A stretch of 64,000 nucleotides of DNA from Arenibacter sp. F26102 (lineage in GTDB: Bacteria > Bacteroidota > Bacteroidia > Flavobacteriales > Flavobacteriaceae). A model generated the notes under the pieces. That model made no database searches, had not been told where the DNA came from, and saw only the letters and a list, made by a program, of their open reading frames with translations. The stretch covers positions 1 to 64,000 of the forward strand of contig NZ_JALKBC010000009.1 of the NCBI RefSeq assembly GCF_023015865.1. The letters are read 5' to 3'. The stretch's first letter is position 1, and the number at the start of each line of letters is the position of its first letter. Position numbers and translations under genes: made by a program. Below are positions 35,975-58,641 of the stretch, one piece after another.

Positions 35975-36709
35975 CTATTTTGCAGCCGCCAAGCTGAATA
36001 CCTGAAAATTATCTATGGTCATATGGTTATTTACCGTTCTAAAGCCAAAGTGCCCGCTGGTGTATGGTGAGGGGTCCTGAAAGTCGATGATCAGATTCCC
36101 ATCCCTATAATACTGTATGATGCCTTTATAAGCGATGATTTTTATTTTAGTAAGTTGATTGGGCTGGATAAGAAATTTAGGGTGTACCAAATCATGCTCT
36201 GGCAGAAGGGGCCTATCCCCGGTTCCCGTATAGCGTCTGAATCGGGTTTTGGTATTATCGTGTCCGCCAACCCCCATATAATAAAGCCTCAGACTGTCAT
36301 AATTGCTGAATTTACCTCCACGTTTTTTTGAATTTGCAAAAAGATCATTGGGATTTTCAAGGTCTTTGGCCATCCAAAAACAATTAAGATCTGAAACACG
36401 GTCCTGGGGTCCGCCCTGGTCTATTACATAGGCATCATATTGGATCATAATAGGGCCTTCCAGTTGTTTTTTGAACCAAATGGTACAACCGGACACATCG
36501 GTAATTTCCAGTTTTCCATCAGTGTTGGTAACGATACCTCCGGGCATCTGCTCCACATTCCAATTATCCAGGCCGTATTTGAAATTATCTTTATAGAGCA
36601 ATGTTGCTTTCACGATAAGGGTATCGTTAATCACCATATCCTTTACTTTTTGGGGATAGGCTTCCGAGAGCAACATAATCAGCAAAATTGATAGTATGGT
36701 TTGTTTCAT
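35975..36709 (-). CDS. DUF6250 family secreted protein (concanavalin-like fold)
   Basis: The 244-residue protein has a signal peptide (MKQTILSILLIMLLSEAYPQ) and strands typical of a jelly-roll: LLYKDNFKYGLDNWNVEQMP, IMIQYDAYVIDQGGPQDRVS, LNCFWMAK and HFGFRTVNNHMTIDNFQVF. I recognise it as DUF6250-like; the family occurs in polysaccharide loci and has no firmly known activity to my knowledge. It is the last gene of the minus-strand operon, 162 bp after the putative glycosidase. A carbohydrate-binding or enzymatic role is inferred from fold and context. Confidence 0.7.
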   Translation of the reverse strand: MKQTILSILLIMLLSEAYPQKVKDMVINDTLIVKATLLYKDNFKYGLDNWNVEQMPGGIVTNTDGKLEITDVSGCTIWFKKQLEGPIMIQYDAYVIDQGGPQDRVSDLNCFWMAKDLENPNDLFANSKKRGGKFSNYDSLRLYYMGVGGHDNTKTRFRRYTGTGDRPLLPEHDLVHPKFLIQPNQLTKIKIIAYKGIIQYYRDGNLIIDFQDPSPYTSGHFGFRTVNNHMTIDNFQVFSLAAAK

Positions 36710-36871
36710 AAAATTTTATAGTTATCGGTTTTATGCTCTAAATATTTTGGAATTATTTGTGCGTCAACATTCCAAGGAAGCCTATTGTTCAACTAGGATT
36801 TTAGATATTACAAACTAAAAGGAACATCATGGGATACAATTTGTTCTAATAATAGTGCCCACAGAGGTTTC

Positions 36872-38095: not shown

Positions 38096-38105
38096 CTTAG
38101 TTAAA

Positions 38106-40880: not shown

Positions 40881-40938
40881 GCTAGTTCTAGTGTTTATAA
40901 TAAGATCTAATTAATAATGGCACATAGATAATAGTGGT

Positions 40939-42306
40939 TTATCGCAATTCCAATCTAATTACACTTACCGATTGGTCCGGTGCTTCTTTTGGCAGTTTTA
41001 GCACAGTACCATTAGCTATTTTGTTGGTGCTGATTTCGGTTTCGGATGCCACCAATAAAGTAGCCTTTTTTAATTTAATGTTTTTATGGATAACCAATTG
41101 GCCATCCTCAGGCCAATCAAAAACATGGGCATAGACTATTCCATCTTTTTTAGTATACCTGCCCCATTCGGGCATATCGTATGGACTGGCCGTGGCGCCA
41201 TAAATTGCTTCCCCGTTGGCATCGGTCCATTCTCCCATGGCCTTTAACCTCCTAATACTTTGGGCAGGAAACCTCCCATATCCATCAGGACCTATGTTTA
41301 ACAAGAAATTGCCGCCCTTGGAAACAATATCGACCAATTTTTGAATAAGGTCTTCACTGGTTTTCCACTTGGTATCATCCGGTTTATAACCCCATGTACC
41401 ATTCATGGTCATACAGGATTCCCAATCTTCGTCGATTCCGGTAGCCGGAATTTCCTGTTCAGGAGTACCAAAATCCCCAGCAAAATTGCCTTCCATATCC
41501 ATACCTTCCATTCCCTTGCGGCCTTTGTCGACCCTATTATTGATTATGGTGTTAGGTTGTAACTCCCTAATGAAACTATACATCTCTTTGCCCATTTCTG
41601 TGGTATAATCGGCAATCCAATCCCCATCAAACCAAACCACGTCAATATCCCCATAATTGGTCAACAACTCTTTTACCTGTGGTTTTAGATAGTTTTTATA
41701 ATACTCCGGAAATTCAGGATTAATTACGGTCTGGTCTTTTTGCCCGGCATTGTAGTTGGGGAATAGATTTCCCTGTGCCTGCGGATGGTGCCAATCTACA
41801 ATAGAGTGATATACTCCAAATTTAATTCCTTGTTTTCTTGATGCTTCTGCCAATTCCTTAATAATATCACGTTTGAATGGAGCGGTATCCATAATATCGT
41901 AATCCGACACTTTTGAATCCCACAAAGAAAAACCATCATGGTGTTTCGTGGTAATTACAATATACTTCATTCCGGCATCCTTGGCCATTTTTACCCAATC
42001 ATCCGCGTTGAATAATTGGGGATCGAACATTCTGGGAAATTTTTCATATTCCTCAATAGTATAATCCAATTTGTCCATTGCCCATTCGGCACCGCCCCCG
42101 GCAATTTGGTCTCCGCGTTCGCCGCCGATTATGGAGTATGCTCCCCAGTGAAGGAACATGCCAAATTTGGCATCACGCCACCATTCCATACGTTCGTCAT
42201 CGGACAATTTTTTTATGTCGGATGTATTCTGGGAATAACCAGTATTAATTGTTGCCATTAATGCTATGATGGCGACTATAGATTTTTTAAAAGTTTTCAT
42301 TTTCAA
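40939..42306 (-). CDS. Alpha-L-fucosidase (GH29), second copy
   Basis: The 455-residue protein has a signal peptide (cleavage near TGYSQ, about 26) and all main GH29 blocks: KFGMFLHWGAYS, YIVITTKHHDGFSLW, the nucleophile in YGDIDVVWFDGDW (Asp 227), and FGTPEQEIP, where a Glu could be the acid/base. It is about 140 residues shorter than the plus-strand fucosidase because it has a shorter C-terminal domain. It lies between the MFS porter and the lyase in the operon, so it removes fucose from oligosaccharides in the periplasm. The two fucosidases may differ in linkage. Confidence 0.95.
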   Translation of the reverse strand: MKMKTFKKSIVAIIALMATINTGYSQNTSDIKKLSDDERMEWWRDAKFGMFLHWGAYSIIGGERGDQIAGGGAEWAMDKLDYTIEEYEKFPRMFDPQLFNADDWVKMAKDAGMKYIVITTKHHDGFSLWDSKVSDYDIMDTAPFKRDIIKELAEASRKQGIKFGVYHSIVDWHHPQAQGNLFPNYNAGQKDQTVINPEFPEYYKNYLKPQVKELLTNYGDIDVVWFDGDWIADYTTEMGKEMYSFIRELQPNTIINNRVDKGRKGMEGMDMEGNFAGDFGTPEQEIPATGIDEDWESCMTMNGTWGYKPDDTKWKTSEDLIQKLVDIVSKGGNFLLNIGPDGYGRFPAQSIRRLKAMGEWTDANGEAIYGATASPYDMPEWGRYTKKDGIVYAHVFDWPEDGQLVIHKNIKLKKATLLVASETEISTNKIANGTVLKLPKEAPDQSVSVIRLELR

Positions 42307-42323
42307 TGGTTTAATTTTATGTA

Positions 42324-43637
42324 TTATTTCAATATAGTTTCTTGTAGTTCCTCCAAGGTTTTTCCTTTGGTTTCAGGCATCATAAAAATTACGAACAATA
42401 ATTGTAGGACCATCATGGCTGCAAAAAACAAAAACACATATCCGGGACTGGAAAGACCGGCCATGGCCAAAGGCATAAAAAGGGTTATTAAGGCGGCTAG
42501 GACCCAATGGGTAGAACTACCAAAAGATTGCCCCTGAGCCCTTACCTCTGTTGGAAATATCTCTGATATGAACACCCAAATTACGGAACCCTGTCCAATA
42601 GCGTGGGCGGCTATAAACAGGAATAAAAAGATAGGCACCATTATTCCCTCCCAATCCAATATAAAGGCCATAGCTACTAAGGACAAGGAAATAATATATC
42701 CAAAGGAACCAATGTACATCAATGTTTTTCTTCCAAGCTTGTCAATTAGGTAAAGGCCTAAAAGGGTAAACAACAGATTGGTCACACCAATTCCAATACT
42801 GCTCAATAAGGAAGCACTTGCTTCCAAACCTGCAGATTCAAATATTCTAGGGGCATAGTATAGAAATGCATTTATGCCCGAGAGTTGGTTGAATAAAGCG
42901 ATTAAAAAGGCCAGGATTAACGGAAATCGGTATTTTTTGTCGAAAAGATGTTTCTTGGGCTTTTGGGTAGGCTCGGGAGTTGACCATAAGGTCAGGTCCA
43001 TTTCAGTACCGGTAAGTTCCAGGTATATTTCTTTAGCCTTTACTACATCCCCTTTTCTATCCAATAACCAGCGGGGACTTTTTGGGACACGGGCAATAGC
43101 TATGACATAAATTAATGCGGGAAGGGCTTCTATACCAACCATCCATCGCCATGGTTGTATACCTACATCTTTCAATAAATAATTGGAAATAAAGGCGATT
43201 AAGATGCCCAATACAATGTTTAACTGGTAAAGCACTACCAATTTTCCCCGATTTTTAGCGGGAGCTATTTCCGAAACATAGGTGGGTGCGGCCACTGTGG
43301 AAGCCCCAACCCCAAGTCCGCCCAAAAAGCGGAAGAATGAGAACGTATAGGGGTCGGATGCAAGGCCGGAACCCAAGGCCGATATAAAATACAGTACCCC
43401 GATCCAAAATAGAGTATTTTTTCTCCCTATCCCATTACAGGGTATGTGTGCAAATATGGCGCCGATCACAGTTCCCCATAATGCCATGGACATCACAAAG
43501 GTACCATGGAACAAATCGGAGGTTTTCCATAAATTCTGTAATTGTTGGTCGGCTCCTGAAATAACCACGGTGTCAAAACCAAAAAGGAATCCGGCCATGG
43601 CCACCACAAAAGCGGTATATAATAGTTTAGTGTTCAT
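42324..43637 (-). CDS. MFS sugar porter (sugar:H+ symporter-like)
   Basis: The 437-residue protein has about twelve membrane helices and sugar-porter signatures: GFLFGFDTVVISGAD in helix 1, GRKNTLFWIG between helices 2 and 3, VPKSPRWLLDRKGD at the middle loop, NQLSGINAFLYYAP in helix 7, DKLGRKTLM and the C-terminal PETKGKTLEEL. It carries a monosaccharide or small oligosaccharide across the inner membrane, probably fucose or the GH88 product. It is 17 bp from each neighbour in the operon, which suggests cotranscription. Confidence 0.94.
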   Translation of the reverse strand: MNTKLLYTAFVVAMAGFLFGFDTVVISGADQQLQNLWKTSDLFHGTFVMSMALWGTVIGAIFAHIPCNGIGRKNTLFWIGVLYFISALGSGLASDPYTFSFFRFLGGLGVGASTVAAPTYVSEIAPAKNRGKLVVLYQLNIVLGILIAFISNYLLKDVGIQPWRWMVGIEALPALIYVIAIARVPKSPRWLLDRKGDVVKAKEIYLELTGTEMDLTLWSTPEPTQKPKKHLFDKKYRFPLILAFLIALFNQLSGINAFLYYAPRIFESAGLEASASLLSSIGIGVTNLLFTLLGLYLIDKLGRKTLMYIGSFGYIISLSLVAMAFILDWEGIMVPIFLFLFIAAHAIGQGSVIWVFISEIFPTEVRAQGQSFGSSTHWVLAALITLFMPLAMAGLSSPGYVFLFFAAMMVLQLLFVIFMMPETKGKTLEELQETILK

Positions 43638-43654
43638 AAGTTTGGTTTTGTACC

Positions 43655-44914
43655 TTAATCTTTTGGTTTGATATCGGTTGATAGGGGTTTGGTTAAAGAA
43701 TTACCAGCCTTTAGTTTTTTTAACCTTAGCAATGCTTCCACGTAATAGTAATCTGCGTAGTTGATGGAATAATCAATTTCGCTGCCATTAGGCTTATGGC
43801 CTGTGGAATGCAGTAAAAATGCCGAATTTTTATCTTTGCTTTGGTAGTTATCGGATAGTTCTACAAGCATTTTTTCGGCTTTATCCGCATAATTTTTTGC
43901 CAGAATTGAATCTTTGGTGAAGGTAGAAAGTTCCAAAAGCGCTGATGAAACCAAGGCCGCTGCGGAGGCATCCCTTGGTTCGTTGGGGATGTTTGGCGCA
44001 TTAAAATCCCAATAGGGAATAAGATCATTCGGTAGGTGTTCCAGATATACTTTGGCAGTTTTTTGTGCTTGATCCAGATACTTGGCATCACCCGTTTCCC
44101 TATATACCATGGTGTAACCATAAATGGCCCATCCCTGTCCGCGGGCCCACATACTATCGTCGGCATATCCTTGATGTGTAACCCCTTTTATTTTTTCCCC
44201 TGTTTCCCGGTCGTATACTACTACATGATACGAGGTGTAATCTGGTCTAAAATGATTTTTCATTGTTACATCGGCATGGCTTACCGCAATATCATATAAG
44301 GATTTATCACCTCCATTTTTTGACGCCCAGAACAAAAGTTCCAAGTTGATCATGTTGTCCATAATGGTATTGTGCTGAGGCCATTCCATATTGGGTACTT
44401 CGCGGGGCCAAGAAAGGATTGTTCCCACTTTTGGATTGAACAATGTAGCCAAGGTGTCTGCGGTTTTAAGTATAATTTCCTTGTATTCAGGATTGCCAGT
44501 TAGCCTATATCCATTTCCAAAACTGTTGAAAACCTGAAAGCCAAGATCATGATCTAGGGCAGGAGTAACCGAAAGAGGGGTAAGATACCTGCTGAAGGAG
44601 TCGGCTTGTTCTTTCCATTTTGCACTATTGGTATTTTCATATAGATACCACAGGGTTCCTGGCCAAAATCCGCTTGTCCAATCCTTGTAGTTTATAAAAC
44701 GCCATTCCTGACTTTCCGGAGCAATATTTCTAGGAATACTCTTATTATCGTTCGGTATGAGGGTTAAAGTCTTGGTAGCCTGCTGTTCACAATATGCCAG
44801 TTGCTTATCTATATCAAAGGTAGGGTTATTGCTTTTTTGAGGTTTCTTATTGCCGCAACCAATGGCAAGGGATATCAAAACTAAGGAAGTTAAAACTTGT
44901 AATTTATTTGTCAT
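43655..44914 (-). CDS. Unsaturated glucuronyl hydrolase (GH88) lipoprotein
   Basis: The 419-residue lipoprotein (lipobox AIGC, Cys 20) is an alpha/alpha-barrel GH88 protein. The two catalytic-type Asp residues are visible as DHDLGF (Asp 123) and IMDNMINLELL (Asp 186), and GFWPGTLWYLYE and DDSMWARGQGWAIYG are conserved. GH88 hydrates the double bond of 4,5-unsaturated uronic acids at the non-reducing end of lyase products. Its presence implies that lyases of this locus cut at uronic acid, the main biochemical clue to the substrate. Confidence 0.93.
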   Translation of the reverse strand: MTNKLQVLTSLVLISLAIGCGNKKPQKSNNPTFDIDKQLAYCEQQATKTLTLIPNDNKSIPRNIAPESQEWRFINYKDWTSGFWPGTLWYLYENTNSAKWKEQADSFSRYLTPLSVTPALDHDLGFQVFNSFGNGYRLTGNPEYKEIILKTADTLATLFNPKVGTILSWPREVPNMEWPQHNTIMDNMINLELLFWASKNGGDKSLYDIAVSHADVTMKNHFRPDYTSYHVVVYDRETGEKIKGVTHQGYADDSMWARGQGWAIYGYTMVYRETGDAKYLDQAQKTAKVYLEHLPNDLIPYWDFNAPNIPNEPRDASAAALVSSALLELSTFTKDSILAKNYADKAEKMLVELSDNYQSKDKNSAFLLHSTGHKPNGSEIDYSINYADYYYVEALLRLKKLKAGNSLTKPLSTDIKPKD

Positions 44915-45051
44915 TATTTAATGGTTAGTCATTTGTGATGTTCAGTTAATATGTGTTTCCCATTCGGTCACGACCTTGGGATATTTATACACCTATTGTA
45001 ATTATTGTTTTAATTTTTTGGCCATTGGTAAATCGGGAGTTTTTTGTTTAA

Positions 45052-46263
45052 TTATTCTTTTATTGATAGATCTAAAGGGTTGGCAATAATTTTGGCTTGT
45101 TGTGATAGAATGTTATCCCAGTCTTCAACCTTTGAAATCTGTCCGCTTTTTGCCCAGGAAAACCCGGCATAATAAGTCAAACTACCTTTGGGTTTGGCGA
45201 TGACCAACAAATTGCTTTGATCTGTTATTTTGCTTTCGCGCACAAAGGCTGTATCTACGACCGAAGTGTCAATTACAATGCCTTCGCCCAAATAGGTGCC
45301 GTCCATGGTCTCCCAATAACGGAACCAACCCTCGTTCTCGTTGAGTTTGGCTTCCCCTTCGTTTTCATGAAGCGTAATGCCTATTGCGATATTGGGGACT
45401 TCTTTTTCAGGTGACAAAACAATTTCAAATTTTGAAAAGTTGCTTCCTAGGTCCAAACTTATTCTTTTGGTTTCCCTCAGGCCATATTCGCTCCAAGGGG
45501 CATAATCCAGTTCAAATACTGTACGAAGAGGTCCGTCTGCTATGGTCCTGGCTTCGGTAAAATTTTGGGAAACATATATGCTGTCGTTTTTATAGATGCC
45601 AATTCCCCCGGTACCCCTACTTCCGCCTACATGGTAGGGGTCGTATCCTTCTCCGTGATCTATGTGGTAGTAACCGGGTGTTTTTAAGTGTTCGGAATAC
45701 CACTTATTAATTACTGACTGTTTTGTTCGTTTTAGCCAAAGATCAATTCCACTGGAAAGCGTACTGCCCGGTACACCTTCCAAAGCCTCTTTCTGACCAG
45801 TTGGTCCGTAAGTGCGGAAGGCTACTTTGTCGTTTTCCCAAGTATAATCGTCCGTCCGCTCAGGTACCAATCGGGAATATGCAACAACATCAGATTCTTG
45901 GGCCATTTTGGTACTATCCAAGGTAATAATGTATTTGGATACTGAATTGGCAGCCACTTCGGCCTCAAACAACAATTCATCGTCAGTGCCATCTTGATCG
46001 TAATCGATCCATTGGGTTCTCTGATAGTCATTGGAATCTTCTTTACGGATTCTAAGGTGTTCCTTTTTTTCGTTTTCCAGAAAATTTTTCAATTTTTGGG
46101 TGGATAATGAAACCACTTCTGCACGGGGAATATTAAGCCCATTTTTGACCTGTAAAGTCAATTTTTCTTTTTCAGTTGGATTACTACAGGAAACGGCAAC
46201 CATAGCTACCAACAAATAGCCCTTTATCAATAATGTTCCAATGCTTATTTTCATATATCTCAT
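45052..46263 (-). CDS. DUF4861 family lipoprotein
   Basis: The 403-residue protein has a lipobox (VSCS, Cys about 26; an alternative start lies at 46254) and matches the DUF4861 family: LQVKNGLNIPRAEVVSL, WIDYDQDGTDDELLFEAEV, GYYHIDHGEGYDPYHVGGSR, RGTGGIGIY and SLTYYAGFSWAKSG. Conserved His, Asp and Arg residues around HIDHGEGYD look like an enzyme active site. DUF4861 proteins recur in loci for sulfated, uronic-acid glycans, and I have no firm activity to assign. It is the first gene of the seven-gene operon, 135 bp downstream of a shared operator-like site. Confidence 0.8.
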   Translation of the reverse strand: MRYMKISIGTLLIKGYLLVAMVAVSCSNPTEKEKLTLQVKNGLNIPRAEVVSLSTQKLKNFLENEKKEHLRIRKEDSNDYQRTQWIDYDQDGTDDELLFEAEVAANSVSKYIITLDSTKMAQESDVVAYSRLVPERTDDYTWENDKVAFRTYGPTGQKEALEGVPGSTLSSGIDLWLKRTKQSVINKWYSEHLKTPGYYHIDHGEGYDPYHVGGSRGTGGIGIYKNDSIYVSQNFTEARTIADGPLRTVFELDYAPWSEYGLRETKRISLDLGSNFSKFEIVLSPEKEVPNIAIGITLHENEGEAKLNENEGWFRYWETMDGTYLGEGIVIDTSVVDTAFVRESKITDQSNLLVIAKPKGSLTYYAGFSWAKSGQISKVEDWDNILSQQAKIIANPLDLSIKE

Positions 46264-46603
46264 TGTCTTTGTTCTATTTATAGAACCTTGGTTCCATGGA
46301 GTGCCATCATCCGAGGTTCTCGTTTATTACATTATTAGCTGTTGGGGACATGCACATAAATATCAAGTACAAGTTTAGCCAGAATGTGAATTGGATAACA
46401 TAAAATATAGTTCAAAGGGTATAAATTATGATTCTTTATGGCTATTTCCCCCCTACTTACAAAACAGTGGCTCTTTTTGGTAAACTATCAGCTTTTTTTT
46501 GTGCTTACTCCGCTTTTTTTTGACTTTAAAGAAACCATTCCTATTACTTGTAAAAGGGACAGTAATTTCAATTGGGATATTTTACTCATCGGGTTAATAT
46601 TGA
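46264..46603. other. Intergenic control region between GH97 and DUF4861 genes
   Basis: No gene is seen. It contains the operator-like site 46399-46440 and presumably the promoter of the DUF4861 operon. T-rich runs at 46492-46500 and 46511-46521 may help end GH97 operon transcripts, but no clear stem precedes them. Confidence 0.45.
46399..46440 (-). promoter_or_regulatory. Candidate HTCS operator 1 (DUF4861-GH88 operon)
   Basis: The minus strand contains ATAATTTATACCCTTTGA, identical to the other two sites. The surrounding 42 bases differ from site 2 (53069-53110) at only two positions. The outer bases form an imperfect inverted repeat (CATAAAG / TTTTATG). It lies 135 bp upstream of the DUF4861 start. 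Confidence 0.75.
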
Positions 46604-48589
46604 TTATTTTTTAGTGATATGAATAACAAAACCATTGTTGCTTTTCAGGTCTATATTTAATTTTGAATTGTAGGTGACATCAATTTCTTCAATTTTAACT
46701 TGAGTTCTGGTTTTAACCGTTTCATCATCTGTATACACTTTGGCTTTATATGTAGTAGCAGACTCTAAAAATGAAAAATTCAGTTCTACTTGCCGTGCAG
46801 TTTTGCCATTAATACCTCCCACGAACCAATCATTCCCTTTTCTACGGGCTATCACACCAATTTCTCCAATTTCAGCTTGCAATACCTTTGTTTCGTCCCA
46901 AGTTGTTGGCACATTATTGAAGAACTCCAACTCCGGCTCATTTCCAATGGTCTTGGTATCGCCCCAAAGCCCATCGTCTTTAACCGGGGCTGCCGGAGCT
47001 TTATCGTACCAGTATAAAAACTGCAGCGGACTAAAAATGCATACCGTTTTCGCTAATTGAGATGCCTGCGAGCCCATTTTATCCACACGTGTGTTATAAT
47101 AGCACACCGTATTATCGGCAGCTCCTGCCAACATTCTGGTAAACATAGTAATTAACGTATGTTCATTGGGTACGGTTTCCTCGTCGCCACGAATACCTTC
47201 TTGGGTCAGCAGATTGGGATAGGTTCTAGAAAAGCCCGTGGGTCTATATTCATCGTGCACATCTACAACCATTTCAAACTCGGCCGCTTTTTTTATGGCT
47301 TCGTGCATCCAGGTAGTTGCATCTTGGTCTCCCACCCGCACAAAGCCAAATTTAATCCCAGAAACACCCCATTTTTTAAACAATGGTAATATCTCGTCCA
47401 ATTGTTTTTCCAAAGATCTACGGTTTACATATAGCATAACCTTAACGCCATTTTCTTTGGCATACTTACAGATTGCCTCAATGTCAAACGGACCTTTAGA
47501 GCGTTTGGGGTCTAAAGTAACCGTTGTGGCATCGGAAGCATTGTCCATCTCGTTGCCATACCATCCGGCATCAAAATGCACATATTGCATATTATGGCTG
47601 GCTACAAAATCGATGGCAGCGAAACCGCCTTGAGTGGTTAAGGTGCTTTCACGAAGTACCTTTCCAGGAGTAATCCATGATTCGTCTTCAATTTCCGTAG
47701 GAGGATTTAAATTTTGAATTATGTAATTATTTTCAAGTAATTGTCCATAACTACTTCCAATCATGACTACACGCCATGGTGATTGAAAAGGTAGTTTTTT
47801 ATGCACCTTGGCGCCTTCAATTTTACTTTCGCCAATCACAGCTCCCGTTATGGTGTCTTGTTTTTGCTCCCCTGCTTTACCATCAAGCGAAGAAACTATA
47901 CTGTATTTGGATGAGTTGCCTTTATTAAAACTCAATCGGCCATAATCTACCAATCCTGCTTCCGCTAAGGCAATTTTTATACTATCACCAATTTCAATCA
48001 ACAATGGACGGTCTGCCCCTTCTTGTAACTCCGTTATGGGAATTTTTCTGTATTCCCCTTGCGCCGTAAGTACTCCTTTTTCACGTTTTGGGGTGGACCA
48101 AACCGGAAAATCTTCAGAAAAATTGTAGTGTACATTTTCACTTAAACCTATTTCTTCCAATCCCTTTTGCTCAGGAATTTCATAAGCGAAAGCAATCCCC
48201 TCATCGTAAGCTCTTGCTATTATATTGACTTTCGCCTCACCCTGTCTTAAATGTATTTTTGTTTGATTGTAATGATTTGGAATGGTACTCAATTCACTAA
48301 ACCTTGAATTCCAATGAGCGTTTTCCGAAGTATTTTCTATTTTTTCTACAGAGATTTTTCCTGAAAAATGCAATTCTTCTGAAAGTAATTCCAAAACTGA
48401 GGTTTGAATAACTTCCTTGTTATCATAGTAGACCGAAAAAGTAAGGTCGTTTTGATTTTCATCGTCCAAAAACACTATTTTTTTTGATCCGTCCGGTGAG
48501 GTCAATGCAATGACTTCTGTTTGTTTACAACTACTGAAACTTAATAATAGTAAGAGTGCTACCCTACACTTTTTTAAAAATGGGTTCAT
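46604..48589 (-). CDS. GH97 glycoside hydrolase lipoprotein (SusB-like active site)
   Basis: The 661-residue lipoprotein (lipobox FSSC, Cys about 21) has the GH97 three-part layout: beta-sandwich (SPDGSKKIVFLDD), TIM barrel (about 280-560), and C-terminal sandwich. The barrel motif SGIKFGFVRVGDQD has Gly where retaining GH97 enzymes have their Asp nucleophile, and HDEYRPTGFSRTYPNL plus TQEGIRGDEE resemble the calcium-binding and base region of inverting members such as SusB. It probably removes an alpha-linked sugar. The start codon overlaps the lyase stop (TAATG), indicating translational coupling. Confidence 0.9.
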   Translation of the reverse strand: MNPFLKKCRVALLLLLSFSSCKQTEVIALTSPDGSKKIVFLDDENQNDLTFSVYYDNKEVIQTSVLELLSEELHFSGKISVEKIENTSENAHWNSRFSELSTIPNHYNQTKIHLRQGEAKVNIIARAYDEGIAFAYEIPEQKGLEEIGLSENVHYNFSEDFPVWSTPKREKGVLTAQGEYRKIPITELQEGADRPLLIEIGDSIKIALAEAGLVDYGRLSFNKGNSSKYSIVSSLDGKAGEQKQDTITGAVIGESKIEGAKVHKKLPFQSPWRVVMIGSSYGQLLENNYIIQNLNPPTEIEDESWITPGKVLRESTLTTQGGFAAIDFVASHNMQYVHFDAGWYGNEMDNASDATTVTLDPKRSKGPFDIEAICKYAKENGVKVMLYVNRRSLEKQLDEILPLFKKWGVSGIKFGFVRVGDQDATTWMHEAIKKAAEFEMVVDVHDEYRPTGFSRTYPNLLTQEGIRGDEETVPNEHTLITMFTRMLAGAADNTVCYYNTRVDKMGSQASQLAKTVCIFSPLQFLYWYDKAPAAPVKDDGLWGDTKTIGNEPELEFFNNVPTTWDETKVLQAEIGEIGVIARRKGNDWFVGGINGKTARQVELNFSFLESATTYKAKVYTDDETVKTRTQVKIEEIDVTYNSKLNIDLKSNNGFVIHITKK

Positions 48590-51408
48590 TAATTTATTGT
48601 TTTTAGTTCAATTGAAATATTTTGAAAATTTGTTGGGGGTACTTTAAACTGTACTACTTTTTTACCGTTTATATTTTTTCTTGCGCCTTGCAACTCTTTA
48701 AATCCGATATTTAATACCACCTTGCCTTCTTTATAGTTGTCAGGTACGGTCAATAAAATTGCGTCGTTACAAGTTAACTTTAATTGCTGCCCTGTAACCA
48801 AGGTGGCCGAGCTCGATTTTTTTCCTAGTATTTCAATAGTATAACCATCAAAACCCATTTCTTTTCCAGCCCCAATAAAAAGTGTTGCAGAATTGCCATC
48901 TTTGGTCAACACCCCAAAGGTTCCTGTAAATTCAATTGATTTATGTTGATACGAATCATAGACCTCGGAAGAAAACACATAATCCGTTCTATCTGTTTTA
49001 CTATCAATTTGTAGTCCCACAAAACTTGGCTTATCATTAGCGACCGCAAATGGTTTTACCGCTGTAATGGTTGCTGGTTCTTTGGTAGTAGAAGGCTCGT
49101 AAACGGTAACAAAAGGTCTTTTCCAAGCTTCGCCATATTGCCTAACCACGGTGGTCAGTAATGGTGCTTTCTCTATTTTTTCTGGAAGTATGTTTCTGAA
49201 GGCCTCGGAATGGGGCGATTTTGCTTTAAAAAGTTCTCGGTTTTCGTTCCCGTTCATCCACATATTCATCTTTATGTTCTCTTCGTTAATAGAAAGATTG
49301 TATGTTGCCTTAAACGGACTATCTATTCTTGCGGATGACTCATCAAACATATAATCATATGCTTTTATGTTGCCCAATTTTGAGTTTAATTTTGATGAAG
49401 GCTTTAATATTAATGGTTGATTATCCTCAGTTGTGAAGTGTAATTCTTGCCCCAAATTATGGTAGAAATAGTCATGATAATCAGCATTATTGGCTTTTGT
49501 TCTAGATCTAAAAATATCAATATAGTAGCCTGTCTTCTCTCCTGTCCTAACAATAGCCATTACCCGGTTTTGATCAGATTTGGTGCTGGGTTCGTTGAAA
49601 TAAAGATCGGAAAACCCAATATAAGGGTAGTACCCGGTCTTCCTCTCGCTCTGCGGGTATAGGTTATTCACCTGAAAAGGGTAATAGCTCCGCATTTTTT
49701 CGTATTCCGATTTTCCATTTACGGAAACCGTGTTGTGGGCAGGAAATTGGGAATAGTATTCGCGATAATCGGGCTGAAAATAACTGGAGCCCCTACCGCC
49801 TTCAGGTCCCAGGATATAGCCTTTGCCATATAGTTCCATGGCCATACCGTTGGAATGCGCATGGTTTCCCAAGGATGCTACCTGTGATATCATTAGGCCG
49901 TGTTCGGGGTCGTGGCCGTTTCGCATGGTCAGCCAACTAACGTTAGGTGCATAAAAGGTTTGGGTCATAAAATGATCTTGCTTTGCAGCTGAGATGCCCG
50001 TATCCAACACTACTTCCGTATTAAATAGAAAATCTAAAAACGGATCTTTTCTCCTTTTTTCCTTAAGCATGTCCTGCTTGCCGTTGAGCATATACAACAT
50101 GGAAGTAAATTTCTCCTCTTGCTGGGATTTACCAAACATTTGGGCATTGGCCACTAGATCCATAAAGGGTTCTGATTCCAAGGTTCCATAGTGCGAGTCG
50201 CCAAAGGCCACTATATGTTTGTTGGGGAACAAATACTGCGGCATGACCTCCACTGCTTTTGGAATTATGGGCATGGCCGGCATAATATCTACCCCAACGG
50301 CTTCTTGGATTATCCTTGCCATATGGGTATACCCCTTGGCAACACTTAGGGCATAGCCGGCACTTTCATTCCAAACTCCATTATCCTGATCGTAACCATA
50401 GGCCAAAACATCGGCAACCGACCATTGTCTGGCTTCTGTCTCGTTAAATACGCGATGCAGGTAGTATTGACAGCCCTTGCCGCCTTCATAGTCCTTATCA
50501 TCATCCAAAGCCAGAGCCAGTTGTATTACAAAATTAGCCTGATGGAGGTTCCAGTTATTATCGGGGACCCCATTTTTTATGATTATTTCAGCCAATTTTT
50601 TTAGAGACCCTGTATATATGGAAACCATAGGCTTTTTCTTCTCCTGAATATAATCGTAGAGAAATCCATAGGTTTCCGCCAGTTCGTCCACAATGTTTTC
50701 TTTGATGACCTGGAAAGATGTGAGACCAATGATTCGCTGTACATTCCCATGCTGAAGATCTACAACCTCTTTCCTGTAATACAACCCCTGCATGTACACA
50801 TCAAAAAGATGGGCCGCTAATTGGGCATAATCTTCATCGCGCTCAATAAAGTACACGATGGCCGCATTGCGGGCTATTTTCATGATGTTCTCATTGGTGT
50901 TTTCTATAATCCTTCCTGTTTTGGATGGGGGCACCCATTCCCAATCATTTGTATTTTTGTTTTGTAAATACAAGCCTCTTTTGTCCTCCAAATAGGGTTT
51001 TATATCCTGTAGCTGGGGAGTTTTATAGGCCGTAACATAATCTCTCTGCCCTGTAAACCTTACAGTAGGTACCGGGGCACGACCTGTGGCGTGGGAATAA
51101 AATTCCCCCTCCACGAACACATCGGTGGCATGCGATTTCCAATACATTTGAAAACGGGAAGACAACCACTCCGGATTCTTCTTATATTGGTCCACATACT
51201 TTATTAGTCCACTTTTAAATGCCGTATAGGCCGACTTAATTTCTTCTGAATTTTCAATTTTCTGTAGGATGTTGTCCTTGTTTAAATGAGGGACCAACAT
51301 TCGAGGATGCGCCCTTTCTATGGAATCAGGAAAAAGGAATTGTGCAAATGCCCATTCACAATTACATAGGAAGACGATCGTAGCAAAAACAAAAATTTTA
51401 TTTCTCAT
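48589..51408 (-). CDS. Heparinase II/III-like polysaccharide lyase, copy 2
   Basis: The 939-residue protein is a paralogue of the lyase at 38106-40880, with the same order of blocks: PTVRFTGQRDYVTAY, SKTGRIIENTNENI, NNWNLHQAN (His about 289), YGYDQDNGVWNES, and ASLGNHAHSNGMAMELYGKG (about 510-530). It has a signal peptide (CNCEWAFAQ) and both the alpha-toroid and beta-sandwich parts. It should cut the same class of uronic-acid polymer by elimination, with a different preference for sulfation or chain position. It starts 7 bp after the sulfatase stop and overlaps the GH97 start by one base. Confidence 0.78.
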   Translation of the reverse strand: MRNKIFVFATIVFLCNCEWAFAQFLFPDSIERAHPRMLVPHLNKDNILQKIENSEEIKSAYTAFKSGLIKYVDQYKKNPEWLSSRFQMYWKSHATDVFVEGEFYSHATGRAPVPTVRFTGQRDYVTAYKTPQLQDIKPYLEDKRGLYLQNKNTNDWEWVPPSKTGRIIENTNENIMKIARNAAIVYFIERDEDYAQLAAHLFDVYMQGLYYRKEVVDLQHGNVQRIIGLTSFQVIKENIVDELAETYGFLYDYIQEKKKPMVSIYTGSLKKLAEIIIKNGVPDNNWNLHQANFVIQLALALDDDKDYEGGKGCQYYLHRVFNETEARQWSVADVLAYGYDQDNGVWNESAGYALSVAKGYTHMARIIQEAVGVDIMPAMPIIPKAVEVMPQYLFPNKHIVAFGDSHYGTLESEPFMDLVANAQMFGKSQQEEKFTSMLYMLNGKQDMLKEKRRKDPFLDFLFNTEVVLDTGISAAKQDHFMTQTFYAPNVSWLTMRNGHDPEHGLMISQVASLGNHAHSNGMAMELYGKGYILGPEGGRGSSYFQPDYREYYSQFPAHNTVSVNGKSEYEKMRSYYPFQVNNLYPQSERKTGYYPYIGFSDLYFNEPSTKSDQNRVMAIVRTGEKTGYYIDIFRSRTKANNADYHDYFYHNLGQELHFTTEDNQPLILKPSSKLNSKLGNIKAYDYMFDESSARIDSPFKATYNLSINEENIKMNMWMNGNENRELFKAKSPHSEAFRNILPEKIEKAPLLTTVVRQYGEAWKRPFVTVYEPSTTKEPATITAVKPFAVANDKPSFVGLQIDSKTDRTDYVFSSEVYDSYQHKSIEFTGTFGVLTKDGNSATLFIGAGKEMGFDGYTIEILGKKSSSATLVTGQQLKLTCNDAILLTVPDNYKEGKVVLNIGFKELQGARKNINGKKVVQFKVPPTNFQNISIELKTIN

Positions 51409-51415
51409 ATATATT

Positions 51416-52912
51416 TTATTTGCTGTCCTGCTTCCTTTCCCAAATGTGACTATCGTTTAAAAGGGCTTTATATTCCTGGCGAAGCTCTTTTTTCAGCTGT
51501 TCAAGAATCACAGGATGTTTTGTTGAAAGGTCCTGTGTTTCCGCTATATCCTGTTTTAGGTTATACAGGACAAAATCGGTAAGCGTTGCATTTTTCACCA
51601 AAGCCTCGTTGCCGCGATGTACATTTAGGATTTTAGGGAGATACCCATCTTCGTTCTTCAGTCGGGCCATTATTTTCCAATCACCACTGCGCATGGCGAT
51701 TACATGTTGGTTAAGTGCATTGTAAAAACCCCATAGCAAGGGTTTGCTTCGTGCAACAGATCCCGTGTTTAATAATGACGTGATCGTTTGACCATCCAAT
51801 TCCTTCTTTGGTAAACTAGCCCCGGCCAATTCCGAAAAAGTGGGTAAAAAATCCAAAGCCGAAACTACTGCATCCGAAGTTCCGATATAGGTCTCCTTGC
51901 CCAACCAATTTATAATACAGGGCACTCTAAAGCCCGCTTCGTTGGTCCATAATTTCATTCCTTTTAAATTGCCGGGGGAACCATAGGAACGTTTTGCCCG
52001 GTTATACCTCAACAGCGTTTCAGGGCCGTTGTCCGAGGTAAATACTACAAGGGTGTTTTTATCCAAGCCGTTATTTTTTAAATAGGCCATTAATCTGCCA
52101 ACAGCAATATCTACGTTTTCTACATTTGCGAAATATTCCGCTTCTTCAAGCGTATCAGTAAATTGAAGGTATTTTTCTACCAAGTCTTCCGGTGATGCGA
52201 TAGGTTCGTGGGGCTCATGAAAGGCAACCTCCAGAAAGAAAGGATTGTCCCCCTTTTTTTTGTCGAGCCAATGTATAGCCTCATCAACGATAAGCTGACT
52301 GCTAAATCCTTCCAATTTGCCCACCTCGGCTCCATTACGGACAAAGTTTTTTGGATCTTTATGACTGGGAGACGCATTGTTATGGGTAGCAAACCAGTGT
52401 TGGAAACCAAAGTGGTCCGGTTGTGGCTGTTCTTCGGAATTGAACAAAGAACTGCCGTGCCACTTACCTACCAAACAAGTGCTATATCCAGCAGAATTAA
52501 GTAGCTGAGGAATGGTTTCTTCATCGGCTTGCAAATGAACCAGATCCTTTAGATCGTCCCTTTCCTTATGACCGCCAACAATAAAATCGTACAAGCCTGC
52601 CCTATTCGGGCTTCTACCCGTTAATAACCCTACCCTTGAAGGGGAACATACGGGAGCGGCGGAATAAAAATTAGTAAGCTTTATTCCAGTCTCGGCCAAA
52701 TTATCAAGGTTGGGTGTTTTAATAATAGGGTGGCCATAGGAGGAAAGGTCCCCATAACCTAGATCGTCGCAAAGCAGCACAATAATGTTGGGCCGGGACT
52801 TGTCAACTACCTTCACGGAATTGGGGGTAGATTTGCACGATGTTACTATCAGGGAACATAACCCCAAAACAAATACAAAAATTCTCATATAATAAAGTTT
52901 AAATTTCTCCAT
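51416..52912 (-). CDS. Sulfatase (S1 family) lipoprotein, fourth copy
   Basis: The 498-residue sulfatase has a lipobox (VTSC, Cys about 26); the in-frame ATG at 52888 would give a more usual short signal. It shows VLLCDDLGYGDLSSYG, the formylglycine motif CSPSR in PVCSPSRVGLLTGRSPNRAG (Cys about 89), VGKWHGSSL, HEPHEPIASP and FTSDNGPE. It is the first gene of the sulfatase-lyase-GH97 operon and has an operator-like site 156-180 bp upstream. It probably removes sulfate so that the lyase can cut. Confidence 0.93.
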   Translation of the reverse strand: MEKFKLYYMRIFVFVLGLCSLIVTSCKSTPNSVKVVDKSRPNIIVLLCDDLGYGDLSSYGHPIIKTPNLDNLAETGIKLTNFYSAAPVCSPSRVGLLTGRSPNRAGLYDFIVGGHKERDDLKDLVHLQADEETIPQLLNSAGYSTCLVGKWHGSSLFNSEEQPQPDHFGFQHWFATHNNASPSHKDPKNFVRNGAEVGKLEGFSSQLIVDEAIHWLDKKKGDNPFFLEVAFHEPHEPIASPEDLVEKYLQFTDTLEEAEYFANVENVDIAVGRLMAYLKNNGLDKNTLVVFTSDNGPETLLRYNRAKRSYGSPGNLKGMKLWTNEAGFRVPCIINWLGKETYIGTSDAVVSALDFLPTFSELAGASLPKKELDGQTITSLLNTGSVARSKPLLWGFYNALNQHVIAMRSGDWKIMARLKNEDGYLPKILNVHRGNEALVKNATLTDFVLYNLKQDIAETQDLSTKHPVILEQLKKELRQEYKALLNDSHIWERKQDSK

Positions 52913-53068
52913 AGTTGGAAGCCTCGTATTTCATTTTTCTTTGGCAATAACTAATGGTGCAAAAAGCAAAATTCCGTTGTTTAAGGCCTATTATTTCTAC
53001 AGTGTTGTGTTCATAATAGAACTGGACTTTCTTGTATTACAATTTTAGTTAGAGTTTTATTAAGTAAT

Positions 53069-53110
53069 CATAAAGTATGGTTCAAAGGGTATAAATTATG
53101 ATTCTTTATG
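53069..53110 (-). promoter_or_regulatory. Candidate HTCS operator 2 (sulfatase-lyase-GH97 operon)
   Basis: The minus strand contains the shared 18-mer ATAATTTATACCCTTTGA. A perfect 7-bp inverted repeat, CATAAAG (53069-53075) and CTTTATG (53104-53110), brackets the site. It is 156-180 bp upstream of the sulfatase start, depending on the ATG chosen. Confidence 0.75.
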
Positions 53111-53413
53111 CACTTATTTGCCCTATTGGCAGGCCTTTTTACAGGGTCAAAAAATTATTCTTCCATTTACTTGCCAATATTCAGCATCCTTAAATACGGT
53201 TTAGAATAAAACCTTTACAACCTCATAGATTCCTCGAGAACACTAATAAAATATACACTATTGATGCATCGGTACAATCCGTGATGAGTTAAGTGCATTT
53301 TTATAAGCTGATCAAGGGTTGATTTTGGGGGCACTTTTAAATTATAAAAATGGGGATGATTTTACACTAATGAACATTTCAGGGTAATGATTTTGCCTAT
53401 TTAGACGGTAAAG

Positions 53414-53447
53414 GAGTGATAATTTATACCCTTTGAGCCATAATTTA
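53414..53447 (+). promoter_or_regulatory. Candidate HTCS operator 3 (susC-susD operon)
   Basis: The plus strand contains ATAATTTATACCCTTTGA; over 34 aligned bases it differs from site 2 at only four positions. It is 124 bp upstream of the susC start, with the same orientation relative to transcription as sites 1 and 2. Confidence 0.75.
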
Positions 53448-53571
53448 AACCTTGGTCCTAGAATTATTTTTAACATTGCCTTAACAAATATTAACGCCAA
53501 GAACGTGGTATTAATTTGTTGGCAAATTCATTCACAATTAACCAATAAACAACCATTTAAATGAAACTTTT

Positions 53572-56500
53572 ATGATTACTGAAAAAAACAAACAATTTAG
53601 TTTAAAGTATGTTACCGGATTTATGGTAATAGTAGGGTTATTGCTCAGTGGATCAACTGGGTTAATGGCAGCCGGCACAAATAGTGTTTTGGGGGTACCA
53701 ATTTTAGAATTGGACAAGGATCAGGAGTTGACCATCACCGGTACGGTGACCAGCTCCGAAGACGGGATGCCAATTCCGGCGGTCAATGTAATAGTAAAGG
53801 GTACCAATAGTGGTACCACCTCAGATTTTGATGGAAATTATGCCATTACCGTTCCCTCGAGTAATAGTGTACTTGTGTTTTCCTCCATGGGTTATACTAC
53901 CAAAGAAATGGTGGTAGGATCCAATAAGGTAATAAACATATCATTGGATACCGATGTAAGTGCTCTTGATGAGGTAGTAGTAGTAGGTTATGGTTCGGCA
54001 AAAAAGGAAACGCTAACAGGTTCTATTGAGCAGGTTAAAGCTGAAGCCTTTGAAGATTTGGCAGTAGGAAGTCCAGCTTTGGCACTACAGGGTAGAACAC
54101 CCGGTCTGGTTGTTACTCGAACATCGTCAAGACCAGGCGACGAAGGGGTTAATTTTCTTATTAGAGGAGCCTCTTCTATAAATGGCATAGACCCCCTTAT
54201 TGTTATAGACGGTATTCCTGCTATAAATTCATCCTCTTTTAATGATATGAACCCTAATGATATTGAAAGTATCAGTGTATTAAAAGGTGGTTCTGCATCT
54301 GTATACGGTTCTCGTGCCGCTGGTGGTGTAATTTTAGTAACCACTAAAAAAGGAAAAGGAGATGTTAAGGTAGATATAAGTACAATTACTCGAATGGGTA
54401 CTATAGGGATTCGCCCACCATCACCAACTATGTCTCAATATGGACAACTTTATGCAGCGGCAGCTCGCGAAGATTTAGCTTCTGGAAAACCTCCTCGTTA
54501 TTTCTTTTGGAGCGACCTTGAAACTGTAGATAGAATAGCAGCTGGAGAAGAAGGGTATTACGATTTACCCATAAATGGTAGAATATGGTTGGGTAATGCG
54601 CCCCGATTTGATGAAATGTTCGGGAACTCATATTCTAGCCAACATAATATAAGTGTATCTGGAGGTACTGAAAAAAGTAATTTCCGTATCTCTGCGGGTT
54701 ATGATGAAAATGTTGGTGGTTTGAAAGTAGCAGATGATAGTGCTGATAGATATAATTTCTCTATAAATTATGGTGTTGATATAAGTAATAAACTAAGTCT
54801 AAATACCAATATAAGCTATTTACATAATAAATTTTCTGGACCAACATCGGGTTTGGCAAGGGAGGCAGCTACATGGGATGCACCTTTATTCCCGACTTAT
54901 AACCCCGATGGACAATATTACGCAAATTTTGGGGGTGTTAATATTACAGGTGATAGAAATGCCATAGCACAGGTTAAAGATGGAGGCCGGGAAAATAAGG
55001 CCGTTGAGCAGTTAAAAATAGCTGCACAGGCTACCTATAAATTTACTGACAATTTAAATTTTATAGGATCATATGCCATTAGTAGACAAAACAGCGAATA
55101 TCAAGCATATGCGGTTTCAGTACCTCTTTATAGTTGGGACGGAGGTTTCTCCAATAATATAAATAATACAAGTTATATTCAAGAAGGAACTGGACCAGAT
55201 GGAAAGGATGGCAACATTACCTATAAGAACTATAAAGGTGCTTTGAATTATACGAATAGCTTTGGAGATCATAATATTTCTGGTTTATTGGCAATAGAAG
55301 CAGAGAAAAATGAACTAAATGAGTATAACATTAGGAGAAATGGCTTTGTTGATTATGGTGTATACGATATTGACTTAGGCGCTACAGATCAACTTGTTAC
55401 AACTTCAGGAGGTGGTAATACATGGGGCTTTTTCGGATATATCGGACGTGTAAATTATGATTATAAAGGAAAATATCTATTGGAATTCCAAGGTAGACGA
55501 GATGGATCTTCAAGATTTGCAAAAGGTGCCAAATGGTCTAACTACGGTAGTGTATCCGGTGGTTGGGTTTTAAGTGCGGAAGAATTTCTTAATGATAGCG
55601 ACATCGTATCATTCTTAAAAATAAGAGGTGGTTATGGCGAATTAGGTAGTACTTCCGGTATTGGTAATTTTGGGTATTTATCAACTGTTGGCTTTGGTAC
55701 TACTGTTTTTGGTGAAACAAACGCAAATCAACAAGCAACTTCAAGAGCCAGTAGTTTATTTAGTAGTACTACAACATGGGAACGTATTGTTTCAAAAGAG
55801 ATTGGTTTGGACTTTAGATTATTTAATAACAAAGTATTCGGTTCATTAGACCTTTATCAGAAAGACAATGTAGGGATGCTTGTTAGAGGTATTACCCCAG
55901 ATGTGCTAGGAACAGCGACTCCGTTTACCAATATAGGTACCTTGGAAACTAAAGGTTGGGAAGCTATGTTGGGTTGGCAAGGTAAAGTGGGTGATTTGGA
56001 CTTCACTATAAGTGCTAATATGAGTGATTCCAGAAATGAAATTACTGAATATGATGGGGCTCAAACAATTTTTGAAAACCTAAATGATACTGATAGATCT
56101 AGAAACATCTTAGGAAAACCAATCAACTCGTTTTATTTATGGGAAACTGATGGTTATTTTGATTCTCAAGCTCAAGTTGACGCTTATTATGCCAGTCTTA
56201 ACCCAGGAGGCATATTGCCATCACAAAGCTCAAATGATGCCTTGCGACCAGGAGATATGATTGTTGTAGATTCCAACGGGGATGGTAACCTTGATAATGA
56301 TGATTTAACGTACAAAGGGGATGCTGCTCCACATTATGTCTACGGATTGAATTTTGATTTTAAATACAAGAATTTTGATGTAAGCGCATTTTTCCAGGGG
56401 GCTCTTGATCATCAAATATATAGGGAAGGTTATTTTGCACAACCTTTTCAAGCAGAATGGCAGAACCAATCCAATACGTGGTTAGGCAGAACATGGACGG

Positions 56501-56817
56501 AAGATAACCGTAATGCTGAGTTTCCTAGGTTAACTACCCAACGTGGACTATCTAGATGGAACTATAGAAGTAAGGACCACATTTTACAAAATAATAGATA
56601 TGTGAGATTAAAATCGCTTATTGTGGGATATAACTTTAAAGGATTACAAATCGGAAATACACCTATTAATACAGTGCGTATTTATTTCTCAGGAAATGAC
56701 TTGTTTGAGTCTACCAGTGTAAAAGATGGATATGACCCCGAATTTCAGCGTAGTTCTAATAACAGCGCCTATCCATTCATGCGTACATGGGCCTTAGGTT
56801 TAAAAGTATCCCTTTAA
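53572..56817 (+). CDS. SusC/RagA TonB-dependent outer-membrane transporter
   Basis: The 1081-residue protein has a signal region (MVIVGLLLSGSTGLMAAG), a carboxypeptidase-regulatory-like domain (about 55-135; ITGTVTSSEDGMPIPAVNVI), the SusC TonB-box-like ALDEVVVVGYG, a plug (about 150-265; FLIRGASSINGIDPLIVIDG, LKGGSASVYGSRAAGGVILV), and a barrel to the C-terminal LGLKVSL. Unlike the first SusC it has no STN domain, in keeping with control by the hybrid two-component system rather than a sigma/anti-sigma pair. It imports oligosaccharides with the SusD encoded 39 bp downstream. Confidence 0.96.
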   Translation: MITEKNKQFSLKYVTGFMVIVGLLLSGSTGLMAAGTNSVLGVPILELDKDQELTITGTVTSSEDGMPIPAVNVIVKGTNSGTTSDFDGNYAITVPSSNSVLVFSSMGYTTKEMVVGSNKVINISLDTDVSALDEVVVVGYGSAKKETLTGSIEQVKAEAFEDLAVGSPALALQGRTPGLVVTRTSSRPGDEGVNFLIRGASSINGIDPLIVIDGIPAINSSSFNDMNPNDIESISVLKGGSASVYGSRAAGGVILVTTKKGKGDVKVDISTITRMGTIGIRPPSPTMSQYGQLYAAAAREDLASGKPPRYFFWSDLETVDRIAAGEEGYYDLPINGRIWLGNAPRFDEMFGNSYSSQHNISVSGGTEKSNFRISAGYDENVGGLKVADDSADRYNFSINYGVDISNKLSLNTNISYLHNKFSGPTSGLAREAATWDAPLFPTYNPDGQYYANFGGVNITGDRNAIAQVKDGGRENKAVEQLKIAAQATYKFTDNLNFIGSYAISRQNSEYQAYAVSVPLYSWDGGFSNNINNTSYIQEGTGPDGKDGNITYKNYKGALNYTNSFGDHNISGLLAIEAEKNELNEYNIRRNGFVDYGVYDIDLGATDQLVTTSGGGNTWGFFGYIGRVNYDYKGKYLLEFQGRRDGSSRFAKGAKWSNYGSVSGGWVLSAEEFLNDSDIVSFLKIRGGYGELGSTSGIGNFGYLSTVGFGTTVFGETNANQQATSRASSLFSSTTTWERIVSKEIGLDFRLFNNKVFGSLDLYQKDNVGMLVRGITPDVLGTATPFTNIGTLETKGWEAMLGWQGKVGDLDFTISANMSDSRNEITEYDGAQTIFENLNDTDRSRNILGKPINSFYLWETDGYFDSQAQVDAYYASLNPGGILPSQSSNDALRPGDMIVVDSNGDGNLDNDDLTYKGDAAPHYVYGLNFDFKYKNFDVSAFFQGALDHQIYREGYFAQPFQAEWQNQSNTWLGRTWTEDNRNAEFPRLTTQRGLSRWNYRSKDHILQNNRYVRLKSLIVGYNFKGLQIGNTPINTVRIYFSGNDLFESTSVKDGYDPEFQRSSNNSAYPFMRTWALGLKVSL

Positions 56818-56856
56818 GGTTTAGCTATTTAATATTTTAAATTAAAAAACATTCAA

Positions 56857-58641
56857 ATGAAAAAATTAATATATAAAGTACTACCATGTGTTATGGTACT
56901 CTTTGCATCATGTGCAGACGAATTTATAGATTTAGCACCGCCAGCATCCATCACGGATGAAGTTTATTATACCGAAGCGGAGCATTTTTTAACAGGCTCC
57001 AACAGGTTTTATACAAACTTAATAGGATGGAGGGACCAAGGAGTATATGCAGATCACGGTTCCGATTTGGTCGGGTATACCGAAGACAGTGAGATGCAGG
57101 AATATAGTAGGGGAGACACTCAGGCGCCAGAAGCTGATGATTATTATTCAGACGCTTATTCGGCTATTAGAGATATGAACCTTTTACTTGCACGAGCTGA
57201 GACTTATGATGGAGAAGGAACTATTGGAGAATATGTGGCAGCAACTAAATTTCATAGAGCTTGGCAGTATTTCTTTTTAGTACAGCGTTTTGGAGGAGTT
57301 ACTTTGGTTACTCAACCTCTAGATGTTGATTCTGAAGAATTATATGGGACACGCAATAGTAGATATGAAGTTGTTGCTCAAATAATAGCCGACTTGGATG
57401 ATGCTATAGCCGGGTTACCTTCAGAACAGGAAATTAGCTCTTCTGATAAAGGAAAGATTAGTAAATGGGCTGCCATGGCTTTTAAAGCAGAAGTTCTATT
57501 ACATGAAGCAACTTGGATGAAATATGTAGGTGATAGTACGGATGGTGATGGTATTAGCACGGGAGCTGGCAGCGCTGGGTTCGATACTGGTAAAATAAAC
57601 GCCTATTTACAGGAAGTTGCAACCTTAACGAAAACAGTTATGGATCAAGGCGGTTATGAGCTTTGGGATAATAACGATGTTCTTGATAATTTGAGTTCAA
57701 ATTTCTTATTCAATCTGGAAGACGGTGGGTCTAACCCTGCTGGATTGGACAAGGCATCCAATAAGGAATTTATTTTTTACGGGAAATACGATTTTACTTT
57801 TAGACAGGCTGGCACACTAGTAAGTCATGTTTTTGAAGGAAGGGTAAAGCCCAGTAGAAAAATGATGGATATGTTTTTATCCAGTGATGGATTACCTATT
57901 GATCAGTCTCCATTGTTTCAGGGATATGCAAATACAGAAGATGAATTCCAAAACAGGGATTTAAGAATGAGAGCTTATTTTACCTATCATAAAAATCTTG
58001 GTGAGATACCTGAAACTGGCGACGTGCTTTTAAATGGAACAAATAATTTCGGTTACTTCAATTCTAAGTTTATGAGTTGGAATTGGGGAACGGATATTGC
58101 CTATAGGGCAACAACTACCGAAGCCTATGACATACCCTTTTTACGCCTTGCCGAAGTATATTTAATGTATGCCGAGGCTTTGTACGAGTTGAATGGAAGT
58201 CTAACTGATGCTGAAATGAACGAATCTATAAATTTAGTTAAAGCTAGGGCTGGATTGCCACCTATTAGCAATACTTTTTTAACGGCTAACGGCATGGATA
58301 TAGGTACAGAAATTCGTAGAGAACGTACCATTGAGCTTTATGCGGAGAGTGCAACAAGGTTTAATGACTTAAAACGATGGGGTATTGCTGAGGAAGAATT
58401 AGGTGAAACCATTTATGGCGCTGTTATAGAAGGTACTGCTTATGAAGGAAACACAGCTTTATATAATCCGGCTGCATATGGTTTCGGAGAAGCAACCACC
58501 ACAACGGGAGTTGGCAATAGAAGATGTCTCATAGTACAGCCGGCATCAATTCGCAACTTTACCAGAAAAAATTACTTATTCCCTATACCTACATCCCAGA
58601 CGGGTTTAAATGATAAGTTACTTCAAAACCCCGGGTATTAA
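56857..58641 (+). CDS. SusD/RagB glycan-binding outer-membrane lipoprotein
   Basis: The 594-residue protein has a lipoprotein signal (lipobox FASC, Cys about 20) and the SusD layout: DLAPPASITDEVYYTEAEHF, TPR-like helices (KFHRAWQYFFLVQRFGGVTL), PFLRLAEVYLMYAEALYELN, NLVKARAGLPPI, RRERTIELYAESATRFNDLK, and the C-terminal YLFPIPTSQTGLNDKLLQNP. It caps the SusC pore and binds glycan at the cell surface. A strong terminator closes the operon 30 bp downstream. Confidence 0.96.
   Translation: MKKLIYKVLPCVMVLFASCADEFIDLAPPASITDEVYYTEAEHFLTGSNRFYTNLIGWRDQGVYADHGSDLVGYTEDSEMQEYSRGDTQAPEADDYYSDAYSAIRDMNLLLARAETYDGEGTIGEYVAATKFHRAWQYFFLVQRFGGVTLVTQPLDVDSEELYGTRNSRYEVVAQIIADLDDAIAGLPSEQEISSSDKGKISKWAAMAFKAEVLLHEATWMKYVGDSTDGDGISTGAGSAGFDTGKINAYLQEVATLTKTVMDQGGYELWDNNDVLDNLSSNFLFNLEDGGSNPAGLDKASNKEFIFYGKYDFTFRQAGTLVSHVFEGRVKPSRKMMDMFLSSDGLPIDQSPLFQGYANTEDEFQNRDLRMRAYFTYHKNLGEIPETGDVLLNGTNNFGYFNSKFMSWNWGTDIAYRATTTEAYDIPFLRLAEVYLMYAEALYELNGSLTDAEMNESINLVKARAGLPPISNTFLTANGMDIGTEIRRERTIELYAESATRFNDLKRWGIAEEELGETIYGAVIEGTAYEGNTALYNPAAYGFGEATTTTGVGNRRCLIVQPASIRNFTRKNYLFPIPTSQTGLNDKLLQNPGY

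Follow-up and report, generated by a model that had tools for sequence, protein, structure and literature searches.

Three operons of one glycan locus of algal-sugar type in Arenibacter sp. F26102 share a short sequence upstream of their first genes, and the locus raises the question of what this sequence is part of and which protein reads it. To our knowledge, HTCSs are major regulators of glycan use in the Bacteroidota and few of their operators have been defined. In the window, by which the whole 64-kb stretch analysed here is meant, exact copies of ATAATTTATACCCTTTGA were found at 46412-46429 (minus strand), 53082-53099 (minus strand) and 53419-53436 (plus strand). All three lie outside the listed ORFs, between genes, are oriented with transcription and face the three operons, and the first ATG follows 135-169 bp after the 18-mer ends. 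A fourth exact copy was not found in the whole 5.44 Mb genome, where the second-best match had two mismatches and was located inside an apparent coding sequence. By allowing up to three mismatches the number of hits in the whole genome rose to 24, about the same rate as the 22 hits of a reversed-pattern control, and the search of the genome for additional operator copies revealed nothing above noise. In no shuffle of the window were there three matches, even when up to three mismatches were tolerated. A first-pass annotation of the window had described the three exact copies, their placement outside ORFs and along transcription upstream of first genes, and a conserved length beyond chance, all of which held. 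The agreement that it reported between sites 1 and 2 (42 bases, two differences) was recovered on realignment, as was that between sites 2 and 3 (34 bases, four differences).

The 18-mer is real in its sequence and copies, but it is not the natural unit, since it straddles the end of one unit, a CCC linker and the start of a second unit of a larger direct repeat; the direct-repeat structure, the true recognition unit and a -7 box at constant distance were missing from the first reading. Each site consists of two units of approximately 18 bp at a pitch of 21 bp with the core ATAATTTATA, and 21 bp was the one repeat distance common to all sites when each was compared with itself. Based on an alignment of 18 sites from eight strains, taken from the window and from loci of HTCS orthologs, the repeated unit reads roughly WWTGAAYCATAATTTATA, and 3 bp of linker separate it from the second unit. 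When pairs of cores with no more than three mismatches were counted across the window and related loci, spacing 21 gave 23 pairs, and the other spacings between 14 and 29 gave 0-6 each. In the orthologous loci of other genera the repeat, its pitch and the position of the -7 box were kept, the invariant bases recurred with a 21-bp period, and linker and flanks had diverged; the CCC linker is conserved in close relatives only. The core is AT-rich and nearly its own reverse complement and therefore reads weakly on the opposite strand too. Palindromic ends, CATAAAG...CTTTATG, seen at sites 1 and 2 were rejected as a feature of the element, having no conservation in other species.

All three window sites have a Bacteroidota -7 box of the form TAnnNTTG whose start lies at position 53 relative to the first base of core 1 (Table 1). 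The published -7 consensus, TAnnTTTG, is of the housekeeping type (PMC7366714), and each of the three boxes is one base off it. Among the sense sites with at most three mismatches in the window and the ortholog loci, counted by hand, the box was found exactly at position 53 in 20 of 21, the one without it being L060:18804. The 18 sites of the alignment were partly picked with the box in view, so that their 18/18 is not independent; the six sense sites in five loci that were retrieved through the HTCS protein alone also have the box at 53. In the 18 aligned sites, the stretch from the proximal unit to the box contained no conserved -33 element. The proximal unit ends 21 bp from the -7 box, roughly at the place expected for a -33 element, and the layout of these predicted promoters fits that of a class II AraC-type activator with the proximal unit at the -33 region.

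Table 1. Predicted operators, -7 boxes, target units and proposed binder in the window. Operators are given as unit 1 / linker / unit 2.
Feature	Coordinates	Strand	Description
Operator 1	46399..46437	-	AAAGAATCATAATTTATA / CCC / TTTGAACTATATTTTATG, 21-bp pitch; R2 E 2.3e-9
Predicted -7 box, DUF4861 operon	46370..46377	-	TAAACTTG, position 53
Operator 2	53069..53107	-	AAAGAATCATAATTTATA / CCC / TTTGAACCATACTTTATG; R2 E 1.4e-10
Predicted -7 box, sulfatase-lyase-GH97 operon	53040..53047	-	TAAAATTG, position 53
Operator 3	53411..53449	+	AAGGAGTGATAATTTATA / CCC / TTTGAGCCATAATTTAAA; R2 E 3.7e-10
Predicted -7 box, susCD	53471..53478	+	TAACATTG, position 53
Target unit 1	35975..46263	-	DUF4861 (BT3233 family), GH88, MFS, GH29, 924-aa protein, GHL15, DUF6250
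Target unit 2	46604..52912	-	sulfatase, heparinase II/III-like lyase, GH97
Target unit 3	53572..58641	+	susC (53572-56817), susD (56857-58641)
HTCS, proposed binder	58753..62919	-	periplasmic propeller, Y_Y_Y, HisKA, HATPase, receiver, AraC-type DNA-binding domain

The operators thus stand upstream of susCD and of enzyme operons in the locus of the HTCS itself, the presumed extent of target unit 1 following from gene spacing. In other genomes the genes downstream of 19 sites were mostly glycan genes and include GH88, GH29, GH3, sulfatase, SASA esterase, lyase, SusC and DUF4861. Sulfatases, GH29, GH88 and lyase-like proteins together suggest that the target glycan is sulfated and contains fucose and uronic acid. 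The 924-aa protein (38106-40880, minus strand) has no Pfam match and is probably a diverged lyase-like paralog, since it and the heparinase II/III-like gene align to a common set of proteins, that gene being 42-44% identical to relatives of the 924-aa protein. Elsewhere in the window, 12842-19788 holds a separate uptake unit with SusD-like, SusC-like, FecR anti-sigma and ECF sigma factor genes. An AraC-type gene at 25986-26873 (plus strand) is located just 5′ of a plus-strand run of sulfatase, fucosidase, SASA esterase and sulfatase genes (27018-35868). No operator copy was found in this run, and this half of the region may for that reason be under its own control.

The HTCS is a single chain with the full domain set recognised by Pfam (Reg_prop, Y_Y_Y, HisKA, HATPase_c, Response_reg and HTH_18). 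The nearest solved structures are 4a2l and 3v9f, both HTCS sensor domains, and 12aw, a receiver plus DNA-binding domain. A CHIP motif is found at residue 1208 and is present in 13 of 13 orthologs; the S/CHIP motif of the receiver, with a D and a K in the DNA-binding domain, has been linked to an inhibitory contact that holds back DNA binding until phosphorylation (PMC11253607). Identity in the DNA-binding domain is 77% among the orthologs and 37% to other HTCSs. Seven orthologs were identified in 60 relatives at 55-90% identity, the next matches being at 36%, and their loci carry the repeat.

The distribution of the sites was followed with a sequence-only profile, R2, which was trained on sites of other genera only and recovered all three sites of the window blind (E values in Table 1); no further sites were detected in this genome at E<=0.01. 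An HTCS ortholog was called at E<=1e-250 in 20 of 400 family genomes. All of these 20 contained R2 matches at E<=7.5e-6, including 16/16 outside the four training genomes, whereas 1 of the 380 genomes without the ortholog reached E<=1e-5 (G420, E 4.8e-6). The match in G420 (contig C4:12033-12102) has no evident glycan genes around it. Within the same genus, three or more sites were present in each of the 4/4 genomes with the ortholog versus 0/14 without it, and no R2 match below 9e-5 was found in these 14. Six genera (g1, g2, g15, g175, g225 and g249) contain genomes both with and without the ortholog, so that common descent by itself is not enough to account for the link between HTCS and sites; G195 (E 2.8e-5) was here the sole ortholog-lacking genome near the threshold. 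In a separate collection the sites were found in 5/5 ortholog loci (two Maribacter and three Flavobacterium) and in 0/67 loci of unrelated HTCSs.

Sites, repeat, box position, conservation and co-occurrence with the HTCS are all seen in the sequence. The three sites are very probably operators of the HTCS at 58753-62919, which is predicted to activate a regulon of three promoters. This HTCS had been proposed as the binder in the first-pass annotation by its position, and that guess is now supported by the genome comparison (20/20 against 1/380 in the family, 4/4 against 0/14 in the genus); it also fits the 21-bp direct repeat of known HTCS motifs (PMC3878776) and the absence of co-occurrence with the rival AraC gene.

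Relatives with the ortholog displayed up to 11 R2 matches, which extend across more than 100 kb or fall in loci far apart (G364, contig C23, 157-272 kb; G436, contig C5; G362, contig C4; G031, approximately 2.27-2.31 Mb), pointing to putative large multi-locus regulons. G364 and G436 have two ortholog HTCSs each. In another ortholog locus, perfect ATAATTTATA repeats are found at both L060:19174 and L060:18804, approximately 370 bp apart and upstream of one sulfatase gene.

Another regulator could be the binder, the obvious one being the stand-alone AraC-family protein encoded at 25986-26873, which has a two-helix DNA-binding domain and whose gene neighbours those for sulfatase and fucosidase within the same glycan region. 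The sites, however, track the HTCS rather than this gene. In G005 and G014 all three operators are kept and the best AraC match is 54% identical, which is paralog level and is also reached elsewhere in the window's own genome; G031, G362 and G436 have the sites and AraC matches of 37-38% only, and the 83% match in G015 is on a different contig from the sites. The gene was rejected as the source of the binder, being absent from site-bearing genomes, and binding by any regulator other than the HTCS is considered very improbable. A promoter for an alternative sigma factor, acting with no activator, would also account for the constant spacing of the box, and the window does contain a gene for an ECF sigma factor (19192-19788). 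The box is nevertheless of the housekeeping type TAnnTTTG (PMC7366714), the 39-bp direct repeat 5′ of it is no sigma element, and the distribution follows the HTCS ortholog, with only G195 nearing the threshold in the six mixed genera; such a promoter is equally hard to credit.

The similarity of sites 1 and 2 over 42 bases might, taken within the window, reflect a promoter stretch copied by a recent duplication of upstream sequence, with no bound protein. Across genera, however, only the two units with their 21-bp period and the -7 box persist, while linker and flanks diverge, and non-homologous genes also stand behind the sites, making simple copying exceedingly improbable.

For the HTCS as activator we infer DNA binding, control by phosphorylation, activation, the transcription starts and the ligand as follows. 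The periplasmic propeller would sense an oligosaccharide, upon which the kinase would phosphorylate the receiver and the AraC-type domain would be freed. Two DNA-binding domains could then occupy the two 18-bp units next to each other, two helical turns apart and on the same face of the DNA. The bound HTCS would recruit RNA polymerase to an otherwise weak promoter, since the proximal unit is near the -33 position and a conserved -33 element is lacking. Class II AraC-type activators recruit RNA polymerase in like manner. The susCD, sulfatase-lyase-GH97 and DUF4861-GH88-MFS-GH29 units would in this way be switched on jointly.

The same layout was looked for near unrelated HTCSs by taking TAnnTTTG boxes and matching the sequence upstream of each with itself at pitches 15-28 and distances 8-35, giving 392 cells. 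The predicted cell (pitch 21, distance 21) ranked first of 392 in the first set, with 8 of 129 boxes having at least 11/18 matches versus approximately one in other cells, a moderate effect. In a second, independent set (60 loci) the predicted cell came third, or second with a looser box, and the top six cells all had pitch 21 with distances from 20 to 26. The threshold-based search was only suggestive, and the threshold-free version and the replication set were clearer. Near unrelated HTCSs the distance is less sharply fixed than the pitch. On balance, HTCS promoters across the Bacteroidota would seem to have a common layout, in which a repeat of 21-bp pitch is found approximately 21 bp before the -7 box and the half-site is specific to each HTCS; this general layout is a lead rather than proof.

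One HTCS hereby gains a testable predicted operator and a predicted regulon of three promoters, and its relatives gain up to 11 R2 matches per genome. If the layout is general, the sequence could reveal the operators and regulons of many uncharacterised HTCSs and link sensors to scattered targets. In the open-licence literature neither an operator study of marine HTCSs nor a report of a fixed distance from HTCS site to -7 box was found, and as far as that literature shows the operator sequence and its regulon in this family are undescribed. Direct repeats of 21 bp are already known for Bacteroides HTCSs (PMC3878776); what may be new is the constant distance to the -7 box, seen more loosely near unrelated HTCSs.

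The predicted HTCS motifs of Bacteroides thetaiotaomicron are direct repeats with a mean distance of 21 bp, located like those of the window 5′ of susCD and enzyme operons and assigned to the HTCS of the same locus; the main text of that study makes no mention of transcription start sites for the motifs (PMC3878776). The operators described here differ from them in the core sequence and in belonging to marine relatives of the Flavobacteriaceae type, and their distance to the -7 box has here been measured. For bt4114 and bt4662, HTCS binding to the promoters was demonstrated by EMSA (PMC11253607), the receiver plus AraC-type domain binding susCD promoters, and the HTCS of the window likewise has CHIP, at residue 1208. 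Those HTCSs act on other glycans and sites and their binding was seen biochemically, whereas that of the present one is predicted. The arrangement of AraC at araI resembles that of XylS at Pm. At Pm, XylS binds two 15-bp direct repeats with a box A and a box B; the repeats are separated by 6 bp and thus have the same 21-bp pitch as the window operators, and the sites of XylS and RNA polymerase overlap (PMC5481539). Both XylS and AraC are sensors of the one-component kind, whereas the HTCS is a fused two-component system bound to the membrane, and its predicted promoters have the -7 box of the Bacteroidota.
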